Source: Methylacidiphilales bacterium
GTDB lineage: Bacteria; Verrucomicrobiota; Verrucomicrobiia; Methylacidiphilales; UBA1321
Direction: 5' to 3'
DNA: 64,000 bases
NCBI GenBank assembly: GCA_021272315.1
Contig: JAJSLI010000121.1
Coordinates: 1 to 64,000, forward strand
This document shows positions 12,739 to 22,913 of the stretch, piece after piece (position 1 is the first letter of the stretch; each line of letters starts with the position of its first letter). The translations under genes were made by a program, and so were the position numbers. The notes beneath the pieces are model-generated. The model made no database searches and was not told where the DNA came from. It worked only from the letters and a program-made list of their open reading frames with translations.

Positions 12739-13476
12739 ATGTCATTTCGCGTAACGGCACTTAAGCGTCATTGCCTCGTGCTATTCCTTCTCGGAATGGT
12801 CTTCGTTCCGGCGTGGTCGCAGAACCCAGCCCCGGATCGCCCCGTTCTCTTCGACAACCGTGATGGCATCGCGACATTCTTCGGCACCTCACCGTTTGTC
12901 ACCTCTTCAACATCCAATCCCAATTACGCTGCCAATAGCCAATGGTTAAAAGTGGAGTTGCACTACAGTGTTACAACCAAACCCGATCAGCCTCCTTTCC
13001 TCCCGTCCGTCACCTTCAAGGTTTGGATCGAGGGGCGCGATTTGTACGATCCCCGGGGCAAGCCGGGCGTGGGAATTGCTGTCGCGCTGACCGGTTCGGT
13101 CACTTACATTAACGTCCCGGCAGGCAGGGACAACTACGGTGTTTTTTACGTCCATCCCAATACCCTGGCCCGCTACAGCACATCCGCCGGTTACACCGAC
13201 TTCGACCGCACGTTCAATGTTCATGCGGAAGCCTATGTCGGCGACCAACTCTCCGATTACTTTGACAAGAGAAAAGAAGATGACCTCAATTGGTTTAAGC
13301 CGCTGACGGTCATTGAAGGACTCGTCTATCGCCAGAATCAGTGCGCCTTTATCGTCGATTCACCGGATCGATATCCGGCCATCAAGCTGGAAGACAAGGA
13401 CTCGTCTTCCTCCTCTTCGGCTCCTTCGTTGTCGCCACCACCGGCGCCAGCGCCGACCCCGGCGCCTACCCAGTAA
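12739..13476 (+). CDS. Secreted protein of pilus-like locus (Amuc_1102-position)
   Basis: A 245-residue protein with a signal peptide (basic MSFRVTALKRH, then a hydrophobic stretch to about residue 29 ending AWSQ). The body is rich in beta-strand-like sequence (WLKVELHYSV, VTFKVWIEGRD, GVGIAVALTGS). The tail, after about residue 220, is low-complexity Ser then Pro/Ala. It is the first gene of the locus and ends 40 bp before the PilM-PilN fusion, the position held by Amuc_1102 in Akkermansia. I infer it is an exported component of that envelope machine; no enzyme motif is visible. Start chosen at 12739 for the signal peptide; an ATG at 12700 is also in frame. Confidence 0.75.
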   Translation: MSFRVTALKRHCLVLFLLGMVFVPAWSQNPAPDRPVLFDNRDGIATFFGTSPFVTSSTSNPNYAANSQWLKVELHYSVTTKPDQPPFLPSVTFKVWIEGRDLYDPRGKPGVGIAVALTGSVTYINVPAGRDNYGVFYVHPNTLARYSTSAGYTDFDRTFNVHAEAYVGDQLSDYFDKRKEDDLNWFKPLTVIEGLVYRQNQCAFIVDSPDRYPAIKLEDKDSSSSSSAPSLSPPPAPAPTPAPTQ

Positions 13477-13516
13477 CTTTTCGGAAATTTTATCCTTAGC
13501 CCGTAATTCTCCCATC

Positions 13517-15295
13517 ATGGCTGCTGCTCAAAAAGTCGTAACAGTTGATCTCGGCACAAGTACGCTCAAGTTTGGTGAGTTTGGTATTGGTCGTGGCGGC
13601 ACACTCACTCTGCTTCGCTACGGGATCGCCGAGCTGGGGCTTGATCCCAACAAGGAGGAAGTGAGATCCAAATTCATCACGCCCACCCTGGCCAAACTTT
13701 TCAAGGATCACGGCGTCCGCGCGGGTGAAGTCCTTCTCTCCATCTCCGGCCAAAGCGTCTTTATGCGCTTCGTGAAGCTTCCCGCCATCAACACCACCCA
13801 GGTTGAGGAGGTGGTTGCTTTCGAAGCCAAGCAAAACGTCCCCTTCCCTATTGATGAAGTGACTTGGGATTACCAGATGATGCCCAACCGCAGCGCCACG
13901 GCCGGAAGCGACGCCGAGGCAGTCATTGTGGCCATCAAGAAGGACGTTCTGGAGGCTGAGGTCGATGCGGTTGTAAAAGCCGGGATGAAAATCAAACGGG
14001 TCGACGTTGCCCCGTTCGCCCTTCTTAACGCCTTCCGCTACAGCGAACCTCAGACCGATGACTGCTCCCTTATCATCGACATGGGCGCCCGCTCGACCAA
14101 CCTTGTTTTTGTCGAAAAATCGAGCTTTTGGATACGGAATATTCCCATTGCGGGGAATCAAATTTCCCAGAACATCTGCAACGATCTCCAGGAACCCTTC
14201 GTCGCTGCCGAGACCCTTAAGAAGGGGAAGGGCTTCGTCTCCCTCGGCGGCGTTTACGCCGACCCGGAAGATGCCGACGCCGCCCGCATATCGAAGATTA
14301 TCCGGTCCACGATGACCAAGCTGCATATCGATATCAACCGCTCTGTCGCCTTTTATCGCACTTCCCTCAACGGCGGTCCTCCCAAACGGGTCTTTCTCAC
14401 CGGAGGCAGTTCCCAGCTTCCGTATCTCGATCTCTTCATTGCGGACAAGCTCAGCCTCCCGGTGGCCTACTTCAATCCCCTGCGCAACGTCGATCTCGCT
14501 CCCTCCCTCAATCGGGAGCATCTCCAGCAGAACAACTGTTGCACCGCGGAACTCGTCGGTCTGGCGCTGCGCGCAACGGGAAGCTGCCCGGCGGAAATCA
14601 ACCTCGAGGCCCCCAGCCTCGCCGCCCGTGCCGACAAACGCCGCAAGCAACCCTTTTATTTTTGCGCGCTTGCCATCTGGATCATTTTTTTCGTCTGCCT
14701 CTCTCTCTCTTTCTGGCAGCAAATCAACCTCACGAGGGCAACCACCGACAAACTCCGCAGTGAGACGGAACACCTTAAGAACAACGCGAGCTCGATCAAG
14801 CAACTGGCCGAGCAAGCCGATTCCCTCGACCGGGTCCGCAACGCCGTGGCGGCTCTCGGCCAGCAACGCAACGCCTGGCCGGAAATTCTTTCCGCCTTGA
14901 ACGACAAGATTCCCCAGGGCGTCTGGATTACGGAATTGACGCCCACTTATGAGGCCCCGGCGACTTCCGGCAGTCGGGGCGCGCAGGGCGGAGGACCGGC
15001 GCCGGTTTTCTCCGCAGGCAACACACAGGTGCCGAACCAAGTCAACGTACTCATCATTAATGGTCTCTACCATTCCTATGACAAGACCATGCAGGTGGAC
15101 TCGACAAGCTTGGGTGCTTTTGTCAACGCATTGGCCACGCTGCCTTATTTCAACATCAATACTGCGAAGACCAGTGAAACTCTCATTTCCTTCACCACGC
15201 ACGACACCGATCCCAATTCGTTTGCCCAGAGATTTTCCATCCATCTGAAACTCAAAAATCCGATCATCGTCAGGACGGATTTCCGCACTCCATGA
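13517..15295 (+). CDS. PilM-PilN fusion, type IV pilus-like assembly protein (Amuc_1101-like)
   Basis: A 592-residue protein joining two pilus-assembly modules. Residues 1 to about 370 are a PilM/FtsA-type actin-fold ATPase: VVTVDLGTSTLKFGEF near the start (phosphate 1), SLIIDMGARSTNLVFVE (phosphate 2) and RVFLTGGSSQLPYLD (adenosine motif). Residues about 380-402 form one transmembrane helix. The rest is a PilN-like part: a coiled coil (about 405-445) and a periplasmic domain with WPEILSALNDKIPQGVWITEL. In Pseudomonas-type systems PilM and PilN are separate and PilN's N-terminal peptide docks in PilM; here they are covalently joined. Its stop overlaps the next start (ATGA). No PilB/PilT ATPase is in the window. 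Confidence 0.88.
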   Translation: MAAAQKVVTVDLGTSTLKFGEFGIGRGGTLTLLRYGIAELGLDPNKEEVRSKFITPTLAKLFKDHGVRAGEVLLSISGQSVFMRFVKLPAINTTQVEEVVAFEAKQNVPFPIDEVTWDYQMMPNRSATAGSDAEAVIVAIKKDVLEAEVDAVVKAGMKIKRVDVAPFALLNAFRYSEPQTDDCSLIIDMGARSTNLVFVEKSSFWIRNIPIAGNQISQNICNDLQEPFVAAETLKKGKGFVSLGGVYADPEDADAARISKIIRSTMTKLHIDINRSVAFYRTSLNGGPPKRVFLTGGSSQLPYLDLFIADKLSLPVAYFNPLRNVDLAPSLNREHLQQNNCCTAELVGLALRATGSCPAEINLEAPSLAARADKRRKQPFYFCALAIWIIFFVCLSLSFWQQINLTRATTDKLRSETEHLKNNASSIKQLAEQADSLDRVRNAVAALGQQRNAWPEILSALNDKIPQGVWITELTPTYEAPATSGSRGAQGGGPAPVFSAGNTQVPNQVNVLIINGLYHSYDKTMQVDSTSLGAFVNALATLPYFNINTAKTSETLISFTTHDTDPNSFAQRFSIHLKLKNPIIVRTDFRTP

Positions 15296-16272
15296 AAAAA
15301 CTATCGCGGTTCGACATCTCGATCATCATCGCCTTCGTGATCATCGCTCTCATTGGTGGTGGAGCCGCCTATTACCTCGACGCTTACCAATTGGCCGATG
15401 CCCAGAACGATGTCCAGGCTGCCAACGACGATTTTCAACAATACTCCTCGAAGATGGTGTTTCTCCCCACCCGGGAAAATCTCAAGATTCTCCAGGGCAA
15501 CATCGATCTCATCCATACGCAGCTCGATCCCATGGTGAAGGATCATCTTCAAGCTCCGGGCAACAAACTGGCTGACATCGTCACCAAGAACACCGTCGAC
15601 TGGAAACGCGACCTCGACGATAACGTGGCCAAGCTCAATGCCGCCGCCAAAGCGCACAACGTCCAGGTCCCCGACAGTTATTATTACAGTTTTTCCTATT
15701 TTCTTAGCAATGCGCCCTCTGAAGAAAATACCGCGGTCCTGAGCAAGCAGCTTCTGGCCATCGAGGAGATAGTCAACATTCTCATCGGCGCGCCGGTCGA
15801 CGCCATCACTTCAATCCGCCGCACCTCGGAGGGCGCGGGCGCCAAGGATAGTGAATTGCTGCCCGGCCATTCCGTCGAAATCGCGGGTGGCCTCTACACC
15901 GCCTATCCCCTTGAAATCGAGTTCGACACGACGACCAATGCTCTCCGCAAAGTCGTCAATGACCTCATGCAGTCGCCCTACGTTTTTATCATTCGCAGCA
16001 TTTCGGTGCAAAACAACCACCCCACTTCGCCCCAACTCGGCGATCTCGACAAAATCGCCGGAGCTCAAGCGCAATCATCCGCTTCCGTCACGGATTCCCC
16101 CGGCGCCGTCGCCGAGACCAAATCCACGGCTGGCCCGCAATATCTCTTCGGCGGCGAAACTCTTCATGTCCGCATGCGCATCGATTTCATCGAGTGGAAG
16201 GGCCTCCCCTCCGACGCTGCCAATGCGGGGGAAACCCCCGCTCCCAATCCGGCTTCACCCACGGGCAACTGA
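15292..16272 (+). CDS. PilO-like envelope protein, Amuc_1100 family
   Basis: A 326-residue protein with a short cytoplasmic N-terminus, one transmembrane helix (about 7-27), a helical coiled-coil region (about 28-95) and a periplasmic C-terminal domain. The block YPLEIEFDTTTNALRKVVN followed by SPYVFIIRSISVQNN (about 204-240) has the same layout as the corresponding region of Akkermansia Amuc_1100 (PLEIAF..., then FTVNSIRIRN...), the TLR2-active pilus-associated protein. Family knowledge points to a PilO-like alpha/beta dimerisation fold. It overlaps the PilM-PilN gene by 4 bp and the next gene by 1 bp (TGATG), so it is translationally coupled. Homology is judged by eye and from gene order. 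Confidence 0.82.
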   Translation: MKKLSRFDISIIIAFVIIALIGGGAAYYLDAYQLADAQNDVQAANDDFQQYSSKMVFLPTRENLKILQGNIDLIHTQLDPMVKDHLQAPGNKLADIVTKNTVDWKRDLDDNVAKLNAAAKAHNVQVPDSYYYSFSYFLSNAPSEENTAVLSKQLLAIEEIVNILIGAPVDAITSIRRTSEGAGAKDSELLPGHSVEIAGGLYTAYPLEIEFDTTTNALRKVVNDLMQSPYVFIIRSISVQNNHPTSPQLGDLDKIAGAQAQSSASVTDSPGAVAETKSTAGPQYLFGGETLHVRMRIDFIEWKGLPSDAANAGETPAPNPASPTGN

Positions 16273-17351
16273 TGAAAACAAAACCAGAAACGCTCGTCCT
16301 CGCCCTGGCCCTCGGCTTCCTTGCCCTCGGTGCCGGCGCCTTGGGCTACTTGTTCCCCGATATCCAGGACCTCACCAACGTCAAATCCACCCAACCGAGC
16401 AACCCGCATAGTCTTCATCCTCTTCATGCGGCAGACCTCCAGGCCAGCTTCTCCGCGTGGACAGCGCCCGCTTCCTGGCCGGAGCCTGCCAACCAGCATC
16501 TTCTCTTCATCTCCGATCCCTATCTTTTCTATCCCGCTCGTTATCCCACCGGGGATTACATCGCCAAGCTCGACGAAAATGCGCGGTCCAACAAGGGTGT
16601 CCTTATCAGCTGGTATCGAAAGCACCATCTCGATTTCACCGCGCCAAACGTCGACGATCAGGATCCCGACGGCGACGGCTTCTCCAACATCGTCGAGTTC
16701 AAGAACGAGCAGCCGGGCCAGAGGCTCGATGCCTTCCATTGCGATGGCTCGAATTCGACCGATCCCCTCGATCCGCAGAGCCACCCAAGCTATCTTTCCC
16801 GACTTCGTCTTGAGAAATACGACAGCGTTCCCTTCCACATCGAGTTTCGCGGTTATCAGGAGATCAATGGTGTTTATCAGTTCCAGCTCTATCTCCGTGA
16901 CGTACCCAGCGAGCAACAGCCCCGGCTGAAAAAAACCGGCGATCCTCTTGGTCTCGAGGGTTACATTGTCGGCGACTTCCACCTCAACAATGTCCAGGAG
17001 AAAGATGTGCACACCGGCATCGTATCTCAGGTGGATGAATCCACGCTCGACCTCCTCAAGCCCGACATTGACTACAAGATCACCCTCACCTTTCGCAAGG
17101 AAGTTGATGCGCCCGAATCGACCGCCAGTTTGGTCATGTTAATGCCATCGGAAGTCGGCAAGGAAATCAAGGTGGCTCGTGACAAAGTCTTCTCTGTTCC
17201 CTTTATCACGGACAAACAATTCCGCCTTGTAGATGTTAGCGATGCCGGCGCTGTCATTCGCGATGCTGACCCTAAAAATCCTCAAAAAATACCGATTCTT
17301 AAGTTAATTCCGTCGGAATGGGACGATGTGCCGCAATCCAAATCCCCCTAA
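16272..17351 (+). CDS. Single-pass envelope protein of pilus-like locus (Amuc_1099-position)
   Basis: A 359-residue protein with an N-terminal transmembrane or signal-anchor segment (about 8-28, ending GYLFPDI) and a mostly polar periplasmic part. A Ca-binding-like segment DDQDPDGDGFSNIVEF (about 136-151) resembles a thrombospondin type 3/dockerin-like DxDxDG loop. PSYLSRLRLEKYDSVPFHIEF follows. It overlaps the Amuc_1100-like gene by one base and is followed by a 64-bp gap with a candidate promoter before the secretin, matching the position of Amuc_1099. Likely links the inner-membrane PilM/N/O part to the secretin, a PilP-like role by position only. Confidence 0.72.
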   Translation: MKTKPETLVLALALGFLALGAGALGYLFPDIQDLTNVKSTQPSNPHSLHPLHAADLQASFSAWTAPASWPEPANQHLLFISDPYLFYPARYPTGDYIAKLDENARSNKGVLISWYRKHHLDFTAPNVDDQDPDGDGFSNIVEFKNEQPGQRLDAFHCDGSNSTDPLDPQSHPSYLSRLRLEKYDSVPFHIEFRGYQEINGVYQFQLYLRDVPSEQQPRLKKTGDPLGLEGYIVGDFHLNNVQEKDVHTGIVSQVDESTLDLLKPDIDYKITLTFRKEVDAPESTASLVMLMPSEVGKEIKVARDKVFSVPFITDKQFRLVDVSDAGAVIRDADPKNPQKIPILKLIPSEWDDVPQSKSP

Positions 17352-17364
17352 GCTACTTTAGGAG

Positions 17365-17408
17365 TTGACTCCAAACGCTTTTTTACATAAAAATATTTAA
17401 ATCGGAGG
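17365..17408 (+). promoter_or_regulatory. Candidate internal promoter and ribosome-binding site before first secretin
   Basis: A TTGACT box (17365-17370) stands 17 bp upstream of TAAAAA (17388-17393), a fair sigma-70-like spacing with a weak -10. The stretch between is T/A-rich. A strong Shine-Dalgarno GGAGG is at 17404-17408, seven bases before the ATG at 17416. The secretin genes could be transcribed separately from the upstream pilus genes. Confidence 0.4.
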
Positions 17409-17415
17409 CCTACGA

Positions 17416-19974
17416 ATGATATTTAACCATGCCCGCCTGTTGCTCGCGGCCTCGCTTTTGCCATTCTCTACACTCTGGCTCCCAGCCGCTGATACAACTG
17501 CAGCCACGAGCCAGGAACCTACGGCAGTGCAAGCCGCTCAGTCCGAGTTGGTCCAGCGCCAGCAGCTCCTGATGAGCGCCAGGCAGGCGATTAACGACGG
17601 CCAGCGTCTCCTTATCACAAACAAGTACGACGAAGCTGCTGACCGTTTCCAGTACGCCCTTGATGCCCTCACCAACGGTGGCATCTCCGCGTCCCTCTAT
17701 AGCCGCGCCGAAGCCGGCCTCGCCGCCGCCAAGGCCGGGCAAGCCCAGGAACTGGCCAAGGATACCAAGTTTGCCCAGGCGGCCTCCCGGCTCGAGGAAG
17801 CCATCGATCTCCAGCCCAACGATCCGACTTATCCCAAGGACCTCGAAGACCTCAAAAAACAGCAGATGGCCTATGAGGCCCAGGTTCGCGATCCCGAAGG
17901 CACGGTCAACAACCCGGCCGTCACGGAAGACTTCAAGGATAGAGTTGCCACCGTCCAAAAGCTCCTCTTTCAGGGGAATGACTATTTCAAGACCGGCCAA
18001 TATGCCAGGGCCGAAGAGACCTACTCCAAGATACTCATTCTCGATCCATACAATAAGGCGGCCCGCGACGCGATGGACCATATGGAAAAATACCGTTATC
18101 GTGCCGATGCCGCCCGTCACGAAGAGTATGAGCAGGAAGGTTATACCGACCTCGATCTCAAGTGGGGCGAAGCCGTCTCGCCCGACATCGTCATTCCGCC
18201 CAACACGCAGGTCAAGGTTGAAACTTCCTCCAACCGCGGAGCGATCACGCGCAAGCTCCAGTCGATCATCATCGACAAGGTCAATTTCGACAAACTCGAC
18301 ATCGCCACGGTCATCCAATTTCTCCAGGATAAAAGCAAGGAACTTGACCCCGATCATCAAGGCATCAATTTCGTCCTACGCCTCACTTCGAACACTCCTC
18401 CTCCCGCTGATAACAGCACCACGCCCGCCGCACCGGCTGCCGCCCCGGGGGCGGCGCCTGCCGCGCCGGAAGGCACCGAGCAGAAGGAAATTCACCGCTC
18501 GGTCAGCATCACCCTCGAAAACGTCCCGCTGATCGAAGTCCTGCGCTACATCACCGAGCAGACCAATCTGCAGTACTCGGTCGAGGACTATGCCGTCTAT
18601 CTCCGCCCCTCCATCGACGAGGGTGAGACACTGACTGTCCGCACTTTTCTCGCCCCCCCCAATTTCTTCACAGGCTCGTCACTTCACGTCACCACTCCCA
18701 CCAGCACGGACCAGGGTGCCACGGTTTCAAGCGTGGCCACCGACGTTCAAGCGGAACTGGCCAGCCGCGGTATTCGCTTCCCCGAAGGCGCCACCGCCAC
18801 CTTCCTCTCCGGTTCAAGCAAGCTCGTGGTGCGCGATACCCCCGAGCAACTCGACCTCATCGCCAATCTCATCGACCAGCTCAACCAGGAAACGCCCCAG
18901 GTCGAGATCGAAGCCAAGCTGGCCGAGTTCAATCAGGATGCCATCAAGGGCCTTACCTTCAATTATGTCGTCGGGCCCTCGTCGATCTCCGGATCAATCT
19001 CCCAAGCTCAAACCGCTTTGCGCGGTCCAGGGTACGCGACCACTGGCGGCTATCCACCGGGAGGACTTGAGGCCGATAGCATTGATTCCCTTATTCAGGC
19101 CAACGCCGCCACCAGTACCGTGTTCCCCATCACCGACGAAGTCGTTAATCCCAATGTTCCCAACACGTTGGTTGTCGGTGCCACGATCAACGATACCGGG
19201 CTGGCTGCGATCATCCAGGCCATCAACAACATGACCGGCGTTTCCCTCCTCGCCGCTCCGACGGTCACGACCCAGAACGGCCTCAAGGCCAATATCGAAA
19301 TTGCCCGCGAATTTCCCTATCCCACCAGCTTCGATCAGCCCAAGTTGAGCAACACCGAGGTTGCCTACACCAGCGGTCCGGGCGCGTTTCAAGCCCTTAC
19401 CCTGGCCATCCCTCCCACGCCGCGCGAATTCGTCACTCAGGACATCGGCGTGAATCTCGAGGTCAAGCCCACCACCTATCCCGATCAACGTATTGACCTC
19501 GACATCACCCACGCGGAGGTCTTCGACTTCGACGGCTTCATCAACTATGGCCAGGGCATCGTCGAACTTCCGGCGTCGACCTCCACCCCGGTGGTTCTGA
19601 CCGCGGGCATCATCAACATGCCCGTTTTCAACCAACGCTCCGTCGTCACCGACCTCCAGGTCCTCGATGGTCAAACCGCCGTTATCGGCGGGCTTATCCG
19701 CGAAGATACGCAGGAAATCAACGACAAGGTCCCGGTCTTGGGCGATTTGCCCCTCGTCGGACGGCTTTTCCAGAGCAAAGTTACGGAACGGACCAAAAAG
19801 AACCTCATCATTTTCATCACCGCCCGATTGATCCGGTCCAACGGCAAGCCCGAATATATCAAGACGCTCAACGCCGAGCCGGCGGAGGAAGCGCTCCCCG
19901 AACCTGAACCGCTTGGGCCGGGTGTGGTTTTACCACCCCTTCCTCCCGGCTCCGAGGGAGGGCCCAATTCATGA
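17416..19974 (+). CDS. Secretin (type II secretion/type IV pilus outer-membrane channel), Amuc_1098-like
   Basis: An 852-residue outer-membrane secretin. A signal peptide covers about residues 1-25. TPR-like helical repeats follow (about 35-225), with DRFQYALDALTNGG and ARAEETYSKILILDP. An N0/STN-like unit includes LIEVLRYITEQTNLQYSV (about 373-390), then N-domains, and the secretin barrel runs from about residue 480. The conserved C-terminal block TDLQVLDGQTAVIGGLIRED...LGDLPLVGRLFQ lies at about 745-800. An Ala/Pro-rich linker sits near 335-350. The ATG at 17416 has a strong Shine-Dalgarno. It overlaps the next secretin start by 4 bp. Family role: a multimeric gated pore for a pilus or secreted proteins. 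Confidence 0.93.
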   Translation: MIFNHARLLLAASLLPFSTLWLPAADTTAATSQEPTAVQAAQSELVQRQQLLMSARQAINDGQRLLITNKYDEAADRFQYALDALTNGGISASLYSRAEAGLAAAKAGQAQELAKDTKFAQAASRLEEAIDLQPNDPTYPKDLEDLKKQQMAYEAQVRDPEGTVNNPAVTEDFKDRVATVQKLLFQGNDYFKTGQYARAEETYSKILILDPYNKAARDAMDHMEKYRYRADAARHEEYEQEGYTDLDLKWGEAVSPDIVIPPNTQVKVETSSNRGAITRKLQSIIIDKVNFDKLDIATVIQFLQDKSKELDPDHQGINFVLRLTSNTPPPADNSTTPAAPAAAPGAAPAAPEGTEQKEIHRSVSITLENVPLIEVLRYITEQTNLQYSVEDYAVYLRPSIDEGETLTVRTFLAPPNFFTGSSLHVTTPTSTDQGATVSSVATDVQAELASRGIRFPEGATATFLSGSSKLVVRDTPEQLDLIANLIDQLNQETPQVEIEAKLAEFNQDAIKGLTFNYVVGPSSISGSISQAQTALRGPGYATTGGYPPGGLEADSIDSLIQANAATSTVFPITDEVVNPNVPNTLVVGATINDTGLAAIIQAINNMTGVSLLAAPTVTTQNGLKANIEIAREFPYPTSFDQPKLSNTEVAYTSGPGAFQALTLAIPPTPREFVTQDIGVNLEVKPTTYPDQRIDLDITHAEVFDFDGFINYGQGIVELPASTSTPVVLTAGIINMPVFNQRSVVTDLQVLDGQTAVIGGLIREDTQEINDKVPVLGDLPLVGRLFQSKVTERTKKNLIIFITARLIRSNGKPEYIKTLNAEPAEEALPEPEPLGPGVVLPPLPPGSEGGPNS

Positions 19975-22577
19975 TTATGCCAGCATCTCAAACAGGGACT
20001 CCTTTCCTGCCATTATCCCTTTCCCTGGCCGTTCTTTTCGTGTTCGCCGGGACGGCTAGGCTCAACGCTCAGCAACCTGCTTCCGGAAGCGGCGCCGCCT
20101 CACCCACGGCCAACCCAACCCCCGGCCTTCTTACGCCTCCGCCCGATACCTCTGCGTCTTCAAGCAGCACCTCGCCCGCCGTACCTCCCCCGTCTGATAC
20201 CGGCACAACGACTCCCCCGGCGCCTCCGGCTGCGGCTTCCACCTCCACGCCCATGACACGGCAGGAGATTGCCCGCATTCAACAGCAGGAAATCATCCGC
20301 CGCCAGGAGCTCATCTTCCAGGCCAACGAATCGCTCAGCGCGGCGCGCAAGGCTGAACTGGCGCAGGATTACCCCGAAGCGCGGAAAGATTATCTCTTTT
20401 GCGTTGAAGCCTATGGTTCCATCTCCCGCGCCACCGTTGTCTATTCCAAGGCTGCCGAGGGTCTTACCCGCGTCGATTTTCAACTCTATGATGCCGCCCT
20501 GGCCCGGGGCGATACCAAACAGGCCAAGCAATTGATCGACGAAGTCGTGAAGTACAACCCGAACAACCAGCTGGCCAACCAGAAATTGCTGGCCATCAAT
20601 CGCGCCCTGGCCAATCCCAACGATACCTCGATCCTGGGCAACCCGGCCATCACGCCCGGCTTTGTCAGCCAGGTCAACCAGGTTCAGGAGCTATTCGCCT
20701 TGGCCGAGCAATATCGCCGGACGGGTCAATGGGACATGGAACAATCCACCCTGAAAAAAATCCTGGGCATTGATCCCTACAATATCGCCGCCACCAAGGC
20801 GCTCGAGCGGCTCCAAGCTGATAAATACGACTATGCCGAGCACGCGCGCGTCGAAAACCGCGACCAGCGCCTCCGCGAGGTGGAGGAAAAATGGTTTGTG
20901 CCCATCAACAACAACGAAGCCGGCCAGAATTCTCAGGAAGGCCAGCCCGTTCTTGAGCGCGCGACCACCTTCAACCTCGACCAGAAGCTCAAGAGCATCA
21001 ATCTCTCGCTCGATTTTACCAATGCCACCATCGAGGAGGCCACCAACTTCCTGACCGTCAAAAGCAAGGATCTCGATCCCGATCATAAGGGCGTCAACTT
21101 CATCATCGATCCCGACGCTTCCACTTCGGCCAAGCCGATCACCCTGACGCTCACCAACGTACCCATGGGCGAAGCGCTCCGCTATATTTGTCAGCTTGCC
21201 GGTGTCAAATTCAAGGTCCAGGACTACGCGATCTCCATTGTTTCGTTCTCGAAAAATACCGATGAACTTATCAGCCGCACCTTCATCGTACCGCCCAACT
21301 TCGTCGCGCCGCCTCAGGAAGCGGCTGACACGAGTAGTGCCTTCGGCGCTGGCGGGGGCAGCCGTCCGCTACCCACCCCTACCGCTACGCCGGCAACGGG
21401 GGCTGCGGCCAACGAGGACCCCGTCCTGACCGCCCTTAAGGCCAAGGGCTTGAGTTTTCCTCCGGGTGCCAGCGCTGTTTACACTCCCACCACCGGGCAA
21501 TTGACCGTGGTCGACACCGCCGACCAGATGGAATTGCTCGAAGAGTTGGTCAATGCCGGTCAAGCCCCCACCCTGATGGTTCGCGTGGCCACCAAGTTTG
21601 TCGAAATCAACCAGACCGATCTCAACGATCTCACCGTCAATATCTCAGCCAATACCGCAGTCAATCAAATATTTCACCATATTAAGGTTGGGACTCAATT
21701 CAACACGGCCCTGCCCGGCGCCTTGAATATTTCCCCGGACAGCATTGATGCCCTGATTACTCCGACGGCCACGACGTTCAACCAACTCACGGTCCACGGA
21801 TTTGTCGGACCCTCCACTTTCGAGATGCTCATCACTGCTCTCGCCCAAAAGCGGAGTTTCGATCTTCTCACCGAGCCCGCCGTGCTGACCAAGAGCGGCG
21901 AAACGGGCACGATGACGGCTGTTCGTATTTTCCCCTATCCCACCGCCTTCGATCCTCCGCAGTTGGTCCAGCCCACCACCACCTCTTCCACCTCGATCAC
22001 CGTCGTCGCGTTTGCTCCGCCCACGATCATTCCCACGACTCCGACTGAATTCAAGCGCCGTAACATTGGAGAAACACTTACCGTCAAGCCCCAGATCGTT
22101 GCCGATAACAAGACCATCGACCTGTCCCTTGTCCCTGAAGTCACGGATTTCGAGGGATTCATCAACTATGGCAGCGCGATTTATGTCGCGAATCCCACGG
22201 ATGAAGATGGGGATCTTTTCCCCGGCACAACCGCCTTCTCGCTCCTCACGCCTAACATTCTCCAACAGCCCGTCTTCAACGTCCGGCACATCAGCACCAA
22301 GGTGCTGATCCAGGACGGCGCGACCGTTGTCCTTGGCGGCTTGATCCGTGACGACGTCGAAACTGTCAATGACCGCGTCCCCTTCCTGGGCGACCTGCCG
22401 TTTATCGGGAGGCTTTTCCAGTCCAAGGCGGTACAGGATACCAAGAAAGACCTTCTCATCTTTGTCACGGCCAACATCTACCAAAACGACGGCGAACTCC
22501 TTAATCCGCCGGTAGAGGCCAACGCCGCGGATGTCCTCACGGGTCACACTATCGTAGCCCCCGTCGCCACACCTTAG
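19971..22577 (+). CDS. Second, tandem secretin with N-terminal TPR-like repeats
   Basis: An 868-residue secretin, paralogous to the preceding gene and overlapping it by 4 bp (ATGA). It has a signal peptide (about 1-33), a Pro/Ser/Thr-rich linker (about 35-85), TPR-like helices (about 95-290), an STN/N0-like unit (TNVPMGEALRYICQLAG, near 395-411), a second flexible Gly/Pro/Thr-rich insert (about 445-480) and the secretin domain. The C-terminal block VLIQDGATVVLGGLIRDD...LGDLPFIGRLFQ is at about 777-825. Two secretins in direct tandem could build a mixed ring or serve two channels. After its stop comes a repeat-rich intergenic region, so this is probably the last gene of the operon. Confidence 0.93.
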   Translation: MIMPASQTGTPFLPLSLSLAVLFVFAGTARLNAQQPASGSGAASPTANPTPGLLTPPPDTSASSSSTSPAVPPPSDTGTTTPPAPPAAASTSTPMTRQEIARIQQQEIIRRQELIFQANESLSAARKAELAQDYPEARKDYLFCVEAYGSISRATVVYSKAAEGLTRVDFQLYDAALARGDTKQAKQLIDEVVKYNPNNQLANQKLLAINRALANPNDTSILGNPAITPGFVSQVNQVQELFALAEQYRRTGQWDMEQSTLKKILGIDPYNIAATKALERLQADKYDYAEHARVENRDQRLREVEEKWFVPINNNEAGQNSQEGQPVLERATTFNLDQKLKSINLSLDFTNATIEEATNFLTVKSKDLDPDHKGVNFIIDPDASTSAKPITLTLTNVPMGEALRYICQLAGVKFKVQDYAISIVSFSKNTDELISRTFIVPPNFVAPPQEAADTSSAFGAGGGSRPLPTPTATPATGAAANEDPVLTALKAKGLSFPPGASAVYTPTTGQLTVVDTADQMELLEELVNAGQAPTLMVRVATKFVEINQTDLNDLTVNISANTAVNQIFHHIKVGTQFNTALPGALNISPDSIDALITPTATTFNQLTVHGFVGPSTFEMLITALAQKRSFDLLTEPAVLTKSGETGTMTAVRIFPYPTAFDPPQLVQPTTTSSTSITVVAFAPPTIIPTTPTEFKRRNIGETLTVKPQIVADNKTIDLSLVPEVTDFEGFINYGSAIYVANPTDEDGDLFPGTTAFSLLTPNILQQPVFNVRHISTKVLIQDGATVVLGGLIRDDVETVNDRVPFLGDLPFIGRLFQSKAVQDTKKDLLIFVTANIYQNDGELLNPPVEANAADVLTGHTIVAPVATP

Positions 22578-22619: not shown

Positions 22620-22813
22620 TGAGGCCCAGAGGGCCGAAAAGAGATTAGCCGGTGGCGCCAGCCACCGGTTTGGCCCGCAAGGTCAACCGCCCCGGATGGG
22701 GCGGCGGATAAATTTGCCTCTCAGAGATTCCGTCGCCCCTCCAGGGCGGGTTCTTTTGTTACGCTTTACCGGTGGTTGGCACCACCGGCTAATTTCCGTT
22801 GGCCCACCGGGCC
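22620..22813. repeat. Cluster of GC-rich palindromes downstream of secretin operon
   Basis: The gap between the secretin and the gene at 22914 (about 335 bp) has no gene but a run of hairpins: 22649-22668 (CCGGTGGC/GCCACCGG), 22687-22704 (CCGCCCC/GGGGCGG), about 22733-22747 (CGCCC/GGGCG), 22769-22788 (CCGGTGGT/ACCACCGG) and 22801-22813 (GGCCC/GGGCC). They look like dispersed intergenic palindromes and could also act as a transcription terminator or mRNA stabiliser for the pilus locus. Confidence 0.6.
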
Positions 22814-22913
22814 AAAAGGCAGAAGGGCGGCTACGATATTTTTGAAAGCGCTATAGGGTCATCCTTCAACTTCATTTTGACTTTCAACCGGGTTGCGTAA
22901 TGCTTATCAGCGT

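Follow-up and report, generated by a model that had tools for sequence, protein, structure and literature searches.

A tandem secretin pair in a MUL2-like pilus locus of a Methylacidiphilales bacterium and the recurrence of secretin doubling across Verrucomicrobiota

Results

A six-gene operon with two adjacent secretins

The window, meaning the whole 64,000-nucleotide stretch of Methylacidiphilales DNA analyzed here (contig JAJSLI010000121.1), carries at positions 12739-22577 of the + strand six co-directional, nearly touching genes, which we named A to F:

12739..13476, +, gene A: secreted protein, Amuc_1102-like (MUL2A-like); NF042424, AlphaFold/Foldseek match to 7dsz
13517..15295, +, gene B: PilM-PilN-type fusion, Amuc_1101-like (MUL2B-like); PF11104, TIGR01175, NF045709, PDB PilM
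15292..16272, +, gene C: PilO-position protein, Amuc_1100-like; phmmer to Amuc_1100 structures, NF038287
16272..17351, +, gene D: single-pass periplasmic protein at the PilP position, Amuc_1099-like; NF042425, AlphaFold, VIA
17416..19974, +, gene E: secretin 1, Amuc_1098 family; PF00263, STN, TPR, NF042912
19971..22577, +, gene F: secretin 2, Amuc_1098 family; PF00263, NF042912; overlaps secretin 1 by 4 bp

An earlier sequence-only reading of this DNA had described the genes as overlapping or nearly touching, and the coordinates agree: B and C overlap by 4 bp, C and D by 1 bp (TGATG, the A being common to both), and E and F by 4 bp (ATGA). For gene B, the ATG at 13517 matches the PilM start, and the open frame extends back to 13313. 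Directly 3' of the operon, at 22632-22816 of the window, lies a palindromic repeat, GCCGGTGGCGCCAGCCACCGG, with an inverted copy 121 bp further on. The bacterium's own genome has 15 occurrences of the motif, against 0 in a reversed control, and contigs C13, C71, and C153 carry pairs with this same 121-bp spacing; the repeat pair looks like a mobile REPIN-type element.

Protein identities

For every gene, the top NCBIfam model was the corresponding Amuc family (A, 1102; B, 1101; C, 1100; D, 1099; E and F, 1098), which, together with a sequence match of C to Amuc_1100 in the PDB and a fold match of A to Amuc_1102, bears out the Amuc_1098-1102-type order and homology named in the sequence-only reading. 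Only D scored above its NCBIfam equivalog cut-off and four of the five families fell below theirs, so that A, B, C, E, and F are, as judged by these curated thresholds, homologues rather than NCBI equivalogs.

Specifically, the sole NCBIfam match of A was NF042424 (Amuc_1102_rel; 38.6 bits versus a cut-off of 55). A Foldseek comparison with the Amuc structures had been proposed, and the AlphaFold model of this 12739 product (pLDDT 85.6) found Amuc_1102 (7dsz) as its best PDB match, with an E value of 3.9e-10 and a TM score of 0.73 by target length. Gene B matched PF11104 PilM_2 (E 2e-37), TIGR01175 pilM (149.7 bits, over the cut-off of 133), NF045709 Amuc_1101_fam (494 bits, under the cut-off of 650), and PilM in the PDB (E 3e-30), while its PilN half gave a weak Pfam PilN match (E 0.15). 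The Amuc_1100-like character proposed for the 15292 product, gene C, was upheld: a missing match had been named as the outcome that would count against it, and phmmer instead matched the Amuc_1100 crystal structures 6laf, 6kny, and 6lad (E 1-2e-6, best 1.3e-6). Its NF038287 Amuc_1100_fam match (E 1.4e-31) reached 110 bits versus a curated cut-off of 180. Pfam PilO matched none of 11 members of the gene C family, and across relatives neither the PilO- nor the PilP-position proteins gave a Pfam family indicating PilO or PilP.

Gene D reached 100.7 bits with NF042425 Amuc_1099_fam, over the cut-off of 50, and its AlphaFold model had a pLDDT of 91. Plain Foldseek returned no significant match for this model; in a second-look VIA search, the beta domain had a single match at Z>=5, the HR domain of GspB (4wfw; Z 6.0, 69 residues, rmsd 3.0), the next being at 4.3. 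PilP was absent from that listing, which we did not count as evidence against it. The match is suggestive of an HR-like domain in the modeled protein, at the PilP position; HR-type domains also occur in PilP and GspC, where they link the inner-membrane frame to the secretin. Gene D further carries a DPDGDGF repeat of the calcium-binding type, and TSP3_bac was found in 25 of 56 family members.

Two full-length secretins of the same family

The second full-length secretin that had been proposed, overlapping the first by 4 bp, is confirmed. The domains of both products are complete, from an N-terminal TPR region through STN/N0 and N1 to the barrel (PF00263; E value 4e-35 for gene E and 2e-31 for gene F). 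NF042912 Amuc_1098_fam was the top model for both (E, 517 bits; F, 538 bits; cut-off 750), and the PilQ model TIGR02515 scored the operon secretins under its cut-off. The two proteins share 30% identity over 824 columns, and in our trees E falls in the order's first-copy clade and F in its second-copy clade. Conservation of N0, N1, and the barrel was about equal in both copies, with few copy-specific residues and, in every lineage, no residue fixed differently between first and second copies. For both copies dN was far under dS, of which, with dS near saturation, only the direction is safe; these comparisons indicate that both are under purifying selection.

One reading of gene F is that it is a captured type II GspD, the secretin fold being common to GspD and to both operon secretins. 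We rejected this candidate, which we regard as most improbable: the best family of F was Amuc_1098 at 538 bits, against 109 bits for GspD (cut-off 351), and F groups with the locus's own secretins. Had it been tied to an unrelated type II system, the sequence-only reading would have been weakened; the trees and the Amuc_1098 score place it with the locus instead.

Secretin number across Verrucomicrobiota

Counting gene B at E 1e-30 or better, the operon was widespread, with hits in 89 of the 113 genomes sampled at class level and 99 of the 115 sampled at phylum level (the two samples overlap), and most loci had a single secretin. Within Methylacidiphilales, profile searches found the locus in most sampled genomes outside the family coded f9, and there two secretins are the rule. 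Gene order was kept across the order and the phylum, and the order A-B-C-D followed by two secretins was verified in fetched loci of relatives. The two secretins adjoin each other on a single contig in the source genome and in 23 of 40 relatives from its order, so this arrangement is far beyond chance. The survey proposed in the sequence-only reading thus sustained its five-gene order; its description of two secretins as unusual was partly wrong, given a pair that is order-wide and recurs elsewhere in the phylum.

Tandem pairs were also found in families f21, f22, f24, f26, f28, f33, and f36 and, elsewhere in the phylum, in f43, f48, and f53, and f12 had one partial pair at a contig edge (L128). 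In f21 (L120, L121), the secretins lie apart from genes A to D and are still paired with a 4-bp overlap. Each of the 16 sampled f11 genomes had, besides the operon copy, a second copy unlinked to it, and one f34 genome (G103) had three copies. Families f17 and f41 are missing the second copy and have kept the first copy and the rest of the operon.

Open frames of more than 2000 aa (L134 2166-9071, L135 2710-9001) each include one region resembling part of the secretin family. The source assembly itself holds a second, partial PilMN-PilO locus (L028, G000:C14:1-4872), which shares 60-64% identity with loci from other families at class level (f40, f42, f29) and does not group with those of the window's order; the contig may be a contaminant, contamination of this assembly being put at 4.5%.

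Repeated origin of the second secretin

In the trees, first and second copies formed separate clades within each of three lineages: (i) the window's order with f21, f24, and f28; (ii) f22, f26, f33, and f36, where f17 and f41, which have one copy each, group with the first copies; and (iii) f43, f48, and f53. A further set, beside f11's own operon secretin, was made up of the dispersed f11 copies. Approximately unbiased (AU) tests rejected one shared origin of the lineage (i) and lineage (ii) second copies (p 0.0006), as well as one shared by the dispersed f11 copies and the lineage (ii) second copies (p 2e-6). When all lineage (i) second copies were taken as one clade, the AU test gave p 0.21, which neither rejects nor proves the clade, and the f21/f24 pair was placed ambiguously in the careful tree. 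The separateness of lineage (iii) rests on the tree, where its eight rows join with support of 97. Taken together, the trees and these tests point toward no fewer than three tandem duplications, plus one or more dispersed ones. Judging from these sequence relationships, every pair is derived from the locus's own secretin, and no second copy came from type II secretion. In the window's order, the tandem duplication would have preceded diversification, with both copies then kept complete and constrained.

A second secretin in Akkermansia muciniphila

Work on the Amuc_1098-1102 locus has concerned host signaling and the use of mucin, and has assumed a single secretin. The A. muciniphila genome G129 has a product that matches the solved Amuc_1100 without a difference over 287 residues, and the operon secretin of G129 has 907 residues, the published length of Amuc_1098 (PMC4960237). 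A second Amuc_1098-family secretin, 36% identical to the operon copy, lies ~0.67 Mb away. The two scored 990 bits (unlinked copy) and 1119 bits with NF042912, both over the cut-off of 750, and no further secretin was found in G129. Since the genome has a single two-domain PilC ORF, its gene content indicates that A. muciniphila has two related secretins and one inner-membrane platform. The unlinked Akkermansia secretin adjoins a conserved protein of ~546 aa (L100 5694-7334, L129 2678-4324) with no Pfam family above cut-off, and in L101 a 514-aa protein follows it.

Motor, prepilins, and co-loss

In the source genome, contig C92 ends with tandem PilB genes (PilB-PilB), C132 carries a PilB C terminus with an adjoining PilC, and C169 carries a PilT pair (PilT-PilT); there are also 15 N_methyl prepilins. 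Both G018 and A. muciniphila have the PilB-PilB-PilC cluster as well. Tandem PilB-type ATPases (L103 7207-10372, L102 5729-9056), seen in this genome and in A. muciniphila, are also found where the operon has one secretin, as in G047, and are thus not tied to secretin doubling. The source genome also contains a Tad system and additional PilC-like genes, which makes one shared motor less clear here; it is clearest in A. muciniphila.

The sequence-only reading was right that no ATPase or pilin gene lies within 12739-22577, and it had taken this absence to suggest a distinct secretion or surface-display system. That the operon stands alone, without motor or pilins, now seems very unlikely, as motor and prepilin genes are encoded elsewhere in the genome and the operon is lost together with PilC. 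Specifically, the operon, PilC, and every secretin are jointly absent in 10 of 10 genomes (2.2-2.5 Mb) of the sister family f9, and in f22 the 0.9-Mb genomes are without PilC and the operon, while a 2.5-Mb genome with the same genus code (G123) keeps all. That these parts are missing together supports one machine. PilC does occur in some other genomes that have no clear gene B; in these, the operon may have diverged past our threshold.

Discussion

Our results suggest that the operon encodes those components of an Amuc_1098-1102-type (MUL2) pilus-like type IV machine that span the envelope. It combines a PilM-N fusion (cytoplasm and inner membrane) with a PilO-like protein, a protein at the PilP position, an Amuc_1102-like secreted protein, and the outer-membrane secretin; the motor (PilB, PilC, and PilT) and the prepilins are encoded elsewhere in the genome. 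The motor would build a pilus-like fiber on the PilMNO(P)-like frame, and the fiber would exit through the secretin rings. Both secretins would form outer-membrane rings docking on this same frame, and linkage and gene overlap suggest similar amounts of the two, as translational coupling would give. Our leading reading, which we consider about evenly balanced between right and wrong, is of a MUL2-like type IV pilus envelope complex with two alternative homomeric channels on one inner-membrane frame. Our data cover gene content, homology, trees, constraint, and the presence and co-loss of motor genes; beyond these we infer the shared frame, the homomeric rings, and a surface or glycan attachment as proposed for MUL2.

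A different arrangement, tentative and less probable, is that both secretins co-assemble in one hetero-oligomeric outer-membrane ring, for which an overlapping tandem would give equal amounts. The same adjacent order in at least three separately duplicated lineages, the 4-bp overlaps and tight tandem linkage, the f21 pair that stays a unit apart from its operon, and the same domains with few copy-specific residues in both copies are in line with it. However, the copies are only ~30% identical here and 36% in A. muciniphila, all 16 sampled f11 genomes have them unlinked, and f17 and f41 lost one copy and kept the remaining operon. The unlinked f11 copy and the loss in f17 and f41 lead us to favor separate channels over an obligate mixed ring. 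A simpler explanation, that duplicates merely raise the amount of channel, accords with repeated separate duplication and with the lack of any fixed difference between copies; yet identity of ~30% and separate clades through the depth of an order are not needed for dosage, and we think this explanation rather improbable. We therefore favor two channels on one frame over a mixed ring, and a mixed ring over plain dosage.

The locus itself is already known, and the tandem secretin is a variant of it. A 2026 survey, in which the proposed role of MUL2 is attachment to mucin or other glycans, did not detect the locus in Methylacidiphilales (PMC13174399); our results extend the Amuc_1098-1102 locus to this order. 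Among the papers open to our literature search, we found none on paired, multiple, or mixed secretins of this family, and the recurrence of secretin doubling and the second copy in Akkermansia may be new observations. With confidence and doubt in near-equal measure, we propose that a two-secretin type IV pilus machine evolved repeatedly and independently in Verrucomicrobiota-type bacteria, with a single inner-membrane motor served by two diverged channels or by a mixed ring, and that the A. muciniphila layout of two secretins and one PilC has gone unnoticed in the searchable literature. The doubled secretin invites a question that can be tested directly, namely whether a single pilus motor serves two different gates or one mixed gate.

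Relative to known systems, the operon resembles type II secretion (GspL-GspM-GspC-GspD) in combining a secretin with a putative HR-type domain, and GspL is likewise a fusion of PilM-like and PilN-like parts. It differs in its profile scores, which are 15.7 for GspL (cut-off 65) and, for the two secretins, 131 and 109 for GspD (cut-off 351). The likeness to the type IVa PilM-N-O-P-Q set is broader: PilM homology, a putative PilN-like fusion half, a protein at the PilO position, a possible HR-like domain at the PilP position, and a secretin at the PilQ position, with PilB, PilC, PilT, and prepilins encoded in the genome as for a type IVa pilus machine. Unlike in type IVa systems, PilM is fused here to the PilN-like part, there are two secretins, the PilP-position protein is larger and carries the DPDGDGF repeat, and the Pfam PilO and PilP models are unmatched. 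The closest likeness is to Amuc_1098-1102 (MUL2 plus secretin), with five matching gene families in the identical, co-directional order 1102-1101-1100-1099-1098; this soil-type bacterium has the same pilus-assembly gene set as Akkermansia. Both also have a second Amuc_1098-family secretin, which is the next gene here, whereas in A. muciniphila it lies 0.67 Mb distant.
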